Assembly: GCA_027080505.1 (NCBI GenBank)
Contig: JALWRX010000031.1
Span: forward strand, 1 to 64,000
Direction: 5' to 3'
Origin: Ghiorsea sp.
GTDB taxonomy: Bacteria > Pseudomonadota > Zetaproteobacteria > Mariprofundales > Mariprofundaceae
DNA: 64,000 nucleotides
The notes beneath the pieces were generated by a model, which was given only the letters and a program-made list of their open reading frames with translations, made no database searches and was not told the DNA's origin. A program made the position numbers and the translations under genes. This document shows, one piece after another, positions 40,117-43,618 of the stretch; position 1 is the stretch's first letter; each line of letters opens with the position of its first letter.

Positions 40117-41001
40117 TTATGTAAACGCCTGCATAAATTCTTGTACACCATCAGGCTCACAAACCAAAAGCACCGTACAACCCGCAGCCATGGCCTTTTC
40201 AGCAGCTTCAGGAATAGGCATACCACAACCTTTCATACATAAGTCATCGCTCCACACACCCCCTTCAAAACCCACTTTGTCATGGAGAATATCTTGCAGC
40301 CAATATTTGGAAAATGTTGCGACATCTTGGTTGATTTCAGGGTATGCCACATGCGCTGTCATGATATGTTTTAAACCTTTGGCAAAGAGCTGAGGAAAAG
40401 CATTCGCCTCTTGTAAAATCATATCCAAATCAGCATGTACTTTAGGCATAGCCAAATGTGAGTCTGCATCCGCCCTGCCATGCCCTGGGAAATGTTTGCC
40501 AATGGCATCTATGCCTGAATCATGTAAGCCAAACATGCATGCCGCCCCTAGTGTAGCAATCGTATCCGCATCGCTGGCATAGGCGCGATTGCCAATGATG
40601 GGGTCGCCTTGGGGGTAAAAAATATCCAATACAGGTGCACAGTTATGGGTAAAGCCAAGTTCTTTTAAGGCTTTGCCTGCTTCATAACTATCTTTAAACA
40701 CTTGTTTGATGGCTTCATCGGCATCTTTTTTATACAAGGCACCAAAATCAGCAGCTTGGGTGCGCTCATTAAATGGTGACCAAGGCATACGGTGAACACG
40801 ACCGCCCTCTTCATCAATCGCCGCCCAAATATCCTTGCCCGCATGCTTGCGAACATCCTCAAGCAAGGCTTTGGTTTGTTCAGGGTTTTGCACATTACGC
40901 GCAAATAAAATCACACCTTTGGGGGTATGGTTGGTTAACCAGTCTTTTTCTTGTTCAGAAAGCGTTAACCCTTCTAATCCAATCACAGCGTGTTGATACA
41001 T
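40117..41001 (-). CDS. nagZ: beta-N-acetylhexosaminidase NagZ (GH3)
   Basis: A 294-residue glycoside hydrolase, family 3: IDEEGGRVHRMPWSP, and the catalytic-loop motif GKHFPGHGRADADSH carrying the acid/base His. It removes GlcNAc from murein turnover fragments in the cytoplasm. Somewhat shorter than typical NagZ (about 330-340 residues). The 158 bases after it (41002-41159) hold a short palindromic repeat and what looks like a degenerate attC. Confidence 0.93.
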   Translation of the reverse strand: MYQHAVIGLEGLTLSEQEKDWLTNHTPKGVILFARNVQNPEQTKALLEDVRKHAGKDIWAAIDEEGGRVHRMPWSPFNERTQAADFGALYKKDADEAIKQVFKDSYEAGKALKELGFTHNCAPVLDIFYPQGDPIIGNRAYASDADTIATLGAACMFGLHDSGIDAIGKHFPGHGRADADSHLAMPKVHADLDMILQEANAFPQLFAKGLKHIMTAHVAYPEINQDVATFSKYWLQDILHDKVGFEGGVWSDDLCMKGCGMPIPEAAEKAMAAGCTVLLVCEPDGVQEFMQAFT

Positions 41002-41096: not shown

Positions 41097-41120
41097 ATAA
41101 AGGGCTCTGACCCCTTTCCT
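41097..41120. repeat. short palindromic repeat, solo copy
   Basis: ATAAAGGGCTCTGACCCCTTTC on the plus strand. Read on the minus strand it is GAAAGGGGTCAGAGCCCTTT, a motif I recall as frequent in many proteobacterial genomes, often beside RAYT/IS200-like transposases. No transposase is nearby here. It interrupts the position where the right half of an attC would be expected. Confidence 0.5.
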
Positions 41121-41159
41121 CATAGTACGCCCCTCTCTATTTTTTTGTTATGTTTGAGT

Positions 41160-41645
41160 TTAATCAGCACCTGTTAACTCCAGCCACTTACTTTTATGGC
41201 AGTAATGGACAACTGAGGCTTTTCCCAAAAAAATATCATTAATGCCCTTGTGTCTTATTTCAGGAGGAACTTCTCCACCATATGATTCATAATGGATTAA
41301 TATATATGGCTTTCCAACAGCTTCTATAGAGTCCCCAAGGGATGCCTCTATTGTTGAGTTGCACCGAAACTCTCCACCCCATTTAATTCGAATATACCTT
41401 TTATTGCCCATGTCGCAAAGCACTGCCAAGTCTTCTTGTCCAACATGAGCGAATTCACCCGATATGGTATAAGTATAGGTATAACTAGGAAATCCTGCTA
41501 CAGCCTTAGGCGGTGTTGGAATAATGCAGCCTTCTTTTTTTAACTTTTCAATAAAAGGCTGAAAAAGTTGGCTGGCTGTTGCAAGCTGAGGAAGAAACAT
41601 GCCGCTTATCAATAGAGTTAAAAATATCCTTTTAAAACAATACAT
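41160..41645 (-). CDS. exported hypothetical protein in cassette 3
   Basis: A 161-residue protein with a signal peptide (to about ATA-SQ). The mature part has AHVGQEDLAVLCD and IRIKWGGEF, a pattern resembling exported proteins with a FG-GAP-like beta structure; four Cys could form disulfides. No known family is recognised. AGGAG lies seven bases before the start, right after attC 41661-41722, so it starts the third cassette. Its own downstream attC is degenerate. Confidence 0.6.
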   Translation of the reverse strand: MYCFKRIFLTLLISGMFLPQLATASQLFQPFIEKLKKEGCIIPTPPKAVAGFPSYTYTYTISGEFAHVGQEDLAVLCDMGNKRYIRIKWGGEFRCNSTIEASLGDSIEAVGKPYILIHYESYGGEVPPEIRHKGINDIFLGKASVVHYCHKSKWLELTGAD

Positions 41646-41660
41646 TCTTACTCCTATAAA

Positions 41661-41722
41661 ACATAACGACCTGCATGAGGGGCAGAGCGAAGCGATGTCC
41701 CTCTCGATGCTCTTGTTATGCC
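41661..41722 (-). other. attC-like recombination site 1
   Basis: On the minus strand: R'' box GGCATAAC, L'' GCATCGAGAGGGAC, loop, L' GCCCCTCATGC, R' box GTTATGT. Outer ends pair (GCATAAC with GTTATG) and the inner arms pair with unpaired bases on one arm, as in integron attC hairpins. Its R'' box contains the stop codon of the upstream cassette gene, a common cassette arrangement. Confidence 0.85.
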
Positions 41723-41955
41723 TTTTTGAAATATATTCCTTGCTCTATATCTGACTTAGCGATTCCTATAAGACTATTGACCAAGCTTTCTTGGTGCTGT
41801 GAGAAATAATCACCATGGGTTTCAAAATCCACTGAATAATTGGGGCTAACCACCTCATTGTTAAGAAACACTTTAACACAATATTTATCATCAATTATGG
41901 TAGTTCTTATTTCAAATGCATTACCATTGCATATGAACTGTTCATTGTTATTCAT
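41716..41955 (-). CDS. hypothetical protein in cassette 2
   Basis: A 79-residue soluble protein (MNNNEQFICNGNAFEI...), without signal or membrane segment. A good AGGAG lies before the start. Its stop codon is inside the R'' box of the following attC. It shows no recognised domain; small single-gene cassettes like this are typical of integron arrays. Confidence 0.65.
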   Translation of the reverse strand: MNNNEQFICNGNAFEIRTTIIDDKYCVKVFLNNEVVSPNYSVDFETHGDYFSQHQESLVNSLIGIAKSDIEQGIYFKKA

Positions 41956-41982
41956 TACTAATTCTCCTAATTGGTTTGTTGG

Positions 41983-42046
41983 GCATAACGCCCTGCATGA
42001 GGGGCGGGAGCGCAGCGAGCGTCCCTCTCGATGCTTTGGTTAGCAT
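41983..42046 (-). other. attC-like recombination site 2
   Basis: On the minus strand: TGCTAACC (R''), GCATCGAGAGGGACGC (L''), a loop, GCCCCTCATGC (L'), GGGCGTTATGC (R'). It shares nearly all conserved blocks with the site at 41661, including the unpaired C and A in L''. The two sites are 322 bases apart, which equals one cassette, and its R'' box supplies the stop of the C39-like gene. Confidence 0.9.
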
Positions 42047-42432
42047 TTTTCTATCAATAAATATTGCCCAGATCCCTTTTTTCCTCGGAATGAAGTTATG
42101 CCTATAGGGGCTTTTGGATTTGGATCAAACATTATTTTCTTCCCATTTCTTTCGATTAAAACCACCCAATGCCAATAATTACCTTTTCGGGGATTGATTT
42201 TCACAATAGCTGGAGTTTTAACTTCCTTCCATGATTTAAACATTTTTCTTTTTGCTGAAAAGCCAAATTCTTCAAGTAGTCCGATAAGGTCTTTATGAAA
42301 TGTATGATAACTACCGTCATTATCAATAAGGTTTCTTTCAAAGAACTCTGCCTTCACAGTCTTGTATGATTTTTCAGTAACCATTGCGACACAAGCAACA
42401 CCACAATCACCTTTCGCGTTGTTTGATTTCAA
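42040..42432 (-). CDS. papain-like C39-type cysteine peptidase-domain protein in cassette 1
   Basis: Residues GDCGVACVAMVT carry the likely catalytic Cys, NYWHWVVLIE the His and MFDPNPKAP the Asp, the C39/papain-like triad order; about 130 residues. The in-frame start is TTG 42432 with no ribosome site. An ATG at 42439 in the other frame reads MIIEIKQRE and would continue into GDCGVA if one A of 42412-42414 were skipped, which matches how such proteins usually begin. The gene is therefore either frameshifted (disabled), misread, or started at TTG. Confidence 0.6.
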   Translation of the reverse strand: MKSNNAKGDCGVACVAMVTEKSYKTVKAEFFERNLIDNDGSYHTFHKDLIGLLEEFGFSAKRKMFKSWKEVKTPAIVKINPRKGNYWHWVVLIERNGKKIMFDPNPKAPIGITSFRGKKGSGQYLLIEKC

Positions 42433-42628
42433 TAATCATATTTAAATACTAACTATACCAATAGGAGTAAACAGTATTACACATTATTGACTCCTATAGG
42501 TGGACATATTTTCCTCATTATTACATATTAAAGCTAAAATGAGGATGTATGTTTGTAGCATACTTTTGTTGTTGCAATGTGAAGTGGGCTTGTTGGAATG
42601 TCAAACACAGTCAGTTGCAAGGTTGGCA
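42433..42628 (-). other. upstream region of the cassette cluster with inverted repeat and leader ORF
   Basis: A stretch without a full gene. It holds an inverted repeat (ATAGGAGT 42461-42468, ACTCCTAT 42490-42497) and, on the minus strand, an 11-codon ORF MCNTVYSYWYS at 42449-42484 with an AGGAGT ribosome site. It stops nine bases before the ATG at 42439. No attC is visible on this side, so the first cassette lacks a left boundary site here. Confidence 0.5.
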
Positions 42629-43435
42629 TTATGTGTCTTGCCAAGTATTTAAAAATTCTGCCAAATGCGGGCGGTGTTCGCTTTCCGATTCAAGGTAGTT
42701 TCGCATACCCAAGATGGCTCTGGCGTAAGCACCTTCAGAAAGTTCGCCTTTAAAAAGCATCCAGCGGAACATGATTAAAGCCGTGGTGCAAACATCGGTC
42801 TCACAATAATTGCGAATGGCATCTATTTCACCACCTTCAAACATGCCTCGCACATCATCACCTGCGGTGTCTAACTTGCCTGGAATGCCAAAAGAAGTTG
42901 CCACCTCATGCATGGAGCAGCGGGCTGATGCACCAAAATCAGACAGCACTTCGAGTAAGTCCAAATGATAGTTGTGGGAGTAGCGGGATTCGTAGTTGTT
43001 CCATTTATCGCCTTCTTTAAACCATCTTGGGCAAGATAAACCATGTACCATAGCTCTATATTTGAGCACGGGCATATCAAAACCTCTGCCATTAAAGCTG
43101 ACCAATTGCGGTGCGCGGGATTCGATGATGTTGAAAAAACCTTGTAACATTTCCTCTTCGCTGGATTCGGCTGTGCCACCTGTGGCAATGCGTTTGATGG
43201 CAAGCTCGCTGCCTTCTTCGCCGATTTCGCGGGTTAAATGGACATAACTGATGGCAACAACTTGATGAAAGGGCTGGCGAGGAAAATCATTTTTACCATC
43301 GGTTTTTTCTAAGAAATAGGCAGATAGGGCATCGCGGGCTTCAAAGTCGTCCATGTCTTGCTTACCAAGCAGTCGCCGCGTTGCATCGGCATCAGGTACG
43401 GTTTCAATATCATAAACAAAGATTTCACGTTGCAT
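42629..43435 (-). CDS. predicted 3'-5' exonuclease (PolB-like exonuclease domain)
   Basis: A DnaQ/RNase H-like fold of the DNA_pol_B_exo2 type: FVYDIETVPD (DxE), LVSFNGRGFDMPVL, and RNYCETDVCTTALI (metal-binding Asp). 268 residues from ATG 43435, which has GAGGGGG six bases before it; TTG 43450 is weaker. Likely acts on DNA or RNA ends. It stands alone; its promoter side is the repeat mosaic. Confidence 0.85.
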   Translation of the reverse strand: MQREIFVYDIETVPDADATRRLLGKQDMDDFEARDALSAYFLEKTDGKNDFPRQPFHQVVAISYVHLTREIGEEGSELAIKRIATGGTAESSEEEMLQGFFNIIESRAPQLVSFNGRGFDMPVLKYRAMVHGLSCPRWFKEGDKWNNYESRYSHNYHLDLLEVLSDFGASARCSMHEVATSFGIPGKLDTAGDDVRGMFEGGEIDAIRNYCETDVCTTALIMFRWMLFKGELSEGAYARAILGMRNYLESESEHRPHLAEFLNTWQDT

Positions 43436-43504
43436 GGCTTGCCCCCTCAATCAAGGTTCAAGCTTACATGAAAATAGGAAATGTCCAAATAAGGGGTATG
43501 GTTT

Positions 43505-43573
43505 GTCATTCCGCACTTGATGCGGAATCCATGTTGTTGAAGTGAACGGGATGCCGTATCAAGTACGGCATGA
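43505..43573. repeat. pair of inverted REP-like units
   Basis: Two versions of a palindromic unit: GTCATTCCGCACTTGATGCGG at 43505-43525 and, in inverse orientation, GATGCCGTATCAAGTACGGCATGAC at 43549-43573. Each is an internal palindrome around CTTGA or TCAAG, and the two copies are inverted with respect to each other. They look like dispersed intergenic repeats of the REP class. Confidence 0.7.
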
Positions 43574-43618
43574 CGATTGTTCTTTCTTGCAAAAAGACTT
43601 CGGCGCAGATGAACAAAA

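Follow-up and report, generated by a model that had tools for sequence, protein, structure and literature searches.

How did a short row of integron cassettes come to lie, with no integrase beside it, between two core genes of Ghiorsea, an iron-oxidising bacterium of the deep sea, and what kind of element does it represent? The window analysed here, a stretch of 64,000 nucleotides (G000:C31:1-64000), belongs to a draft MAG of 2.03 Mb in 134 contigs that is 88% complete. The original prediction read the locus as a CALIN-like cassette cluster, either solo or separated from its integron by the neighbouring core genes. We searched the whole genome (G000) by model and by pattern and compared it with 61 genomes of the same family, Mariprofundaceae, and with 24 genomes from outside it, the comparison resting throughout on draft assemblies, mostly MAGs. 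The reading we favour, with a probability of about 0.75, is that of a chromosomal integron platform from which intI has gone, on which attI, its leader and three cassettes remain, and whose cassettes would be exchanged by an IntI acting in trans.

attC sites and cassette genes of the array

The cassette side of the locus, ordered from the first cassette to nagZ, consists of the following features:

42040-42432, minus strand: cassette 1 gene, C39-like peptidase, 130 aa, TTG start
41983-42046, minus strand: attC of cassette 1 (R2 75.5 bits, rough E-value 3.9e-19), stop codon in R''
41716-41955, minus strand: cassette 2 gene, 79 aa, unassigned product
41661-41722, minus strand: attC of cassette 2 (R2 75.3 bits, rough E-value 4.5e-19), bottom strand folds, stop codon in R''
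41160-41645, minus strand: cassette 3 gene, 161 aa, unassigned product, signal-peptide-like N-terminus (by eye only)
41130-41153, minus strand: half attC of cassette 3, comprising just R'' (ACATAAC) and an L''-like part
41100-41117, minus strand: REP-like motif AAAGGGGTCAGAGCCCTT, adjoining the half attC
40117-41001, minus strand: nagZ, core gene on the distal side

Both attC sites lie where predicted, have the arms GCATCGAGAGGGAC and GCCCCTCATGC in common, with starts 322 bases apart, and are real. R2, a covariance model of Zeta/Gamma attCs made from nine sites in genomes other than G000, with the window sequences left out, matches exactly these two sites in the 64 kb, and they are its sole matches genome-wide. 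G008, a genome of the same genus (Ghiorsea, Zetaproteobacteria) assembled into about 10 contigs, has near-identical attCs in its complete integron. The sites have paired R and L boxes and, by inspection, extrahelical G and T bases on the bottom strand. Folded as DNA, the bottom (+) strand of site 1 forms the attC hairpin (z = -2.6; 1 of 200 shuffles as good), and the case for site 2 is weaker from folding alone (z = -1.2). A generic attC model of non-Zeta sites, which holds too little structure to decide, gave its best match at site 2, with a rough E-value of 0.23.

The three cassette genes all face one way, as foreseen, and lie on the minus strand. The claim that each stop codon falls within an R'' box holds for the 79-aa and 130-aa genes (GCATAAC and GCTAACC) and fails for the third gene, which stops a few bases before the box; the R''-L''-like half-site predicted behind it is present. 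The C39-like gene occurs only in G000 among the 61 family genomes. Just upstream of its TTG start, an ATG frame (42395-42445, minus strand; MIIEIKQRER, then a stop) resembles the usual start of such proteins set in a different frame, and the gene may be frameshifted or the sequence in error. The array had no match among plasmid records, and an Rfam scan of the region returned chance matches only. Beyond the array, a strong hairpin between the exonuclease gene and murJ (43502-43577) gave a chance match to mir-643, below the gathering score, and resembles a dispersed bacterial repeat.

The attI, its leader and the absence of intI

On the other side of cassette 1, reading from the core gene towards the array, the following features were recognized:

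42629-43435, minus strand: predicted 3'-5' exonuclease gene (DNA_pol_B_exo2), core gene on the attI side
42547-42605, minus strand: segment of about 60 bases from TTTGACA, at the place where intI starts in complete integrons
42511-42546, minus strand: attI leader with the inverted repeat TCCTCATT..AATGAGGA, equal to the 5' intI leader of complete integrons
42453-42504, minus strand: attI, TCCACCTATAGGAGTCAATAATG...TTACTCCTATTGGTATAG, with the G of the G|TT crossover (42453|42452) as its last base

As predicted, the window contains no integron integrase: tyrosine-recombinase matches are found only at 60.7-61.5 kb and fall far below the TIGR02249 cut-off. The search of the 88%-complete G000 assembly found no intI either, and its RND-gshA interval, the integron site in G008, is empty. 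With at least two attC sites and no integron integrase nearby, the array has what makes a CALIN, and no intI stands beside its attI, as it would in an integron.

The sequence just 5' of the first cassette in the complete integron of G008 (intI, attI and cassettes with three attCs of the window type and two of another) recurs in the window, on the stretch that separates cassette 1 from the exonuclease gene. Here, attI and leader together span 42453-42549, cassette 1 is inserted at G|TT, and the exonuclease gene lies beyond, in the place of intI. Judged by its sequence, the block is an attI, with a G|TTRRRY insertion and a cassette directly after it. All 52 of its bases match the attIs in G000:C74, G005 and a solo platform of G061, and equally the attI beside the intact intI of G061 (L121), a genome in which an intact integron occurs together with a solo pad that has the same module. 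The window attI is homologous to the integron attIs of G008, G002 and G006, and the homology to intI-linked attIs covers about 95 bases before the junction (attI and leader). The L121 leader matches the window to within about 12 bases of the intI start codon, where the window turns into the TTTGACA segment and then the exonuclease gene; the window thus retains attI and the intI leader but no intI.

The TTTGACA segment is common to other intI-less platforms of the same type. It contains a -35-like TTGACA (42599-42604), which the modules have in common at their left end, with a poor -10, and a consensus promoter scan predicted no promoter in it. The arms of the leader inverted repeat, TTCCnCnTT..AAnGnGGAA, show covariation at two base pairs in 18 aligned sites (alignment A4), attI contains ATAGGAGT..ACTCCTAT, and both elements are retained at pads without intI. 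We also considered the solo module as a clean mobile unit, with copies of this type all starting near TTTGAC, and discarded the idea: no invariant GTT borders the copies on the left, so that no transposition mechanism presents itself.

In the closest relative, G005, the exonuclease-attI junction is as in the window and the cassettes are different; in G008, the exonuclease and nagZ neighbours are present without the array, with other genes between them and neither attI nor attC. The two sites thus do not belong permanently to the locus, which was the alternative against which the prediction had asked to be checked. In G005 (L070 9700-11040), an IS3-family element lies inside the attC of the first cassette, and the products of further cassettes were recognized by eye as a GFA-like protein and a toxin-antitoxin pair of VapBC-like type. 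Of the original prediction, the cassettes without an integrase in cis stand, and the choice between a solo cluster and one cut off by core genes was incomplete, since the array has its own attI and leader. Because this attI is identical to that of the intI-bearing integron of G061, sequence comparison marks the array as an integron platform that has lost intI, and not merely as a CALIN.

An ordinary CALIN, formed by off-target insertion at a chance genomic attG by a distant IntI, would agree with the lack of a nearby intI and with the GTT at the junction, but a full attI and an intI leader precede that junction; because the full attI is present, we reject this reading as highly improbable. There is equally little reason to believe that a complete integron was misjoined to the exonuclease gene during assembly or binning, leaving intI on another contig. 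The genome is indeed a draft MAG in 134 contigs, and the IntegronFinder authors caution about such cases (PMC9024848), yet the identical exonuclease-attI junction is found in a second MAG, G005, and the intI-less module turns up elsewhere too, beside prmA in both G000 and G004 and at yet another place in G061. The multiple copies and the conserved dyad could mark the attI-like block as a dispersed repeat with a promoter or regulatory role, and not as an attI; this is very hard to sustain, however, for a block that serves as attI in several intact integrons and at whose crossover point attC cassettes start.

attI pads and cassette change in the Mariprofundaceae

The attI word occurs at 16 places in 9 of the 16 Ghiorsea genomes, and these include a second attI module of G000, beside prmA, with one cassette. 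A sequence-only attI model, the training sites of which include the window's own attI, has matches in 26 of the 61 relatives, up to 15 per genome, and in none of the 24 genomes outside the family. Its matches in G000 are two strong ones and three weaker ones (rough E-values from 2.5e-7 to 8.5e-5), the latter likewise preceding cassette-like genes. The stages of intI loss are all represented among the 59 sites examined, some of them weak and a few with short upstream sequence: intI is intact at 5, a pseudogene at 1 (G008 C5:150k), an N-terminal stub at 6 and absent from 47. Three genomes that are 95-99% complete (G017, G018 and G020) have several attI-like sites and no match at the level of IntI, a pattern that fits relics equally well.

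Segmental duplication of pads is seen directly, because one genome carries a tandem attI, another a doubled prmA tail and others partial gshA copies. The order in G009 (L017 2218-3110) is intI, attI, cassette, half attC, REP, a piece of the intI start, attI and cassettes, whereas that in G004 (L110 1-3022) is the prmA tail, attI, two cassettes, a REP palindrome and the prmA tail again without attI. Partial second gshA copies are present in G002, G001 and G010 (L284, L285 and L286, respectively) and in G003, the copy in G002 standing at the end of an intI-linked integron array. In several arrays (L107, L015, L110, L017 and L262), a GGGGTCAG-type REP-like motif directly follows the last, truncated attC, and REP-type transposase genes come next in G008 and G020. 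The density of GGGGTCAG is 0.13 per kb after arrays vs 0.03 per kb upstream, which is at most suggestive of a REP transposase moving pads.

Comparison of intI-less loci revealed where they differ. Around the exonuclease-attI junction, G000 and G005 are 97% identical over 200 nt up to G|TT vs approximately 50%, the random level, after it. The same break at G|TT was found between G000 and G004 at prmA and among G015, G011 and G002 at another locus. In the pair G015_C106 and G011_C69, different flanks (66% over 200 nt before G|TT) are followed by the same cassette (97% over 300 nt after it). Between paralogous pads, attI shows 0 changes in 52 positions vs 20 of 106 (p = 2e-4) and 14 of 108 (p = 5e-3) in the leader; pairs involving G004 show 3 changes in attI. 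These alignments indicate that cassettes are replaced exactly at G|TT between orthologous intI-less loci, for which recombination at intI-less attIs by IntI in trans would be the simplest account. Because no intI was found in the draft of G000, we infer present-day activity of the window array from sequence comparison.

The alternative that deserves most attention, although we consider it unlikely, is an inert relic: intI would have been lost long ago, attI and the cassettes would persist passively, and the differences between genomes would stem from deletions, homologous recombination or REP/IS events. Such passivity would suit the lack of intI in G000 and in near-complete genomes with many attI-like sites, the truncated last attC, the IS3 element within the G005 attC and the unchanged cassettes of one orthologous pair (G000 C76 and G005 C109). 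It sits poorly with the several groups of orthologous intI-less loci whose similarity breaks off exactly at G|TT, with one identical cassette at two different pads and with an attI that stays unchanged where the leader changes. A bolder version of trans action remains tentative and, in our view, is somewhat doubtful: a distributed integron, in which many intI-less attI-plus-leader pads, dispersed along the chromosome, would be under selection that holds them to the attI sequence of one trans-acting IntI, and a single integrase would load many separately expressed short arrays.

Under the favoured reading, intI would have been lost from the platform, attI, leader and three cassettes would have stayed, and the last cassette would be locked in by its truncated attC. 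IntI made elsewhere, in another integron of the population, by unassembled DNA or by an integron since lost, would have inserted and removed cassettes at the window attI. The many intI-less pads of the Mariprofundaceae would most likely have arisen by intI loss together with segmental duplication.

Relation to known integron systems

Integron surveys class elements as complete, In0 or CALIN, and have not asked about attI retained in CALINs; our literature search, with most subscription journals outside its reach, returned no paper on intI-less attI pads. Such pads are common across the whole family and their cassettes have changed since intI loss, which opens two questions to testing: whether a single integrase acts in trans on many sites, and by what course integrons in sedentary genomes decay or multiply. 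Reviews derive CALINs from off-target insertion, intI loss or rearrangement (PMC8618304), and the window locus is a case of intI loss.

Like a sedentary chromosomal integron, the array has attI, cassettes in one direction, attCs with the R''/L''/L'/R' anatomy, and the same attC and attI sequences as the intI-bearing integrons of the genus and family; unlike one, the window type lacks intI in cis, forms very short arrays and occurs as several pads per genome. With two attCs and no intI nearby, the usual rule would call it a CALIN (Cury et al., via PMC8618304 and PMC9024848), but that definition ignores attI, and because an intact attI has been kept the array would be a landing site and not just an excisable cluster. 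Mobilisation of CALINs in trans is accepted (PMC12444791 and PMC9668308). The inactivated integrons of Xanthomonas (PMC12444791) resemble our case in progressive intI loss, leftover arrays and CALINs at several loci, whereas the accessible portions of that account do not describe a retained multi-copy attI or site-exact cassette change after intI loss.

In the delta-attI-type cassettes of class 1 and 2 integrons (PMC12901181), attI also lies away from intI and is still able to recombine; there, however, it replaces the attC of a cassette, whereas here attI and leader head a separate chromosomal array, the tandem attI of G009 being closer to that type than the window array is. Insertions at attG (PMC12901181 and PMC12444791) likewise place cassettes outside the integron, at GTT sites of the genome, but attG has no homology to attI, and a whole attI is present here. 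What is new in the present locus and its relatives is the retained attI, its multiplicity and the evidence of later, site-exact cassette change.
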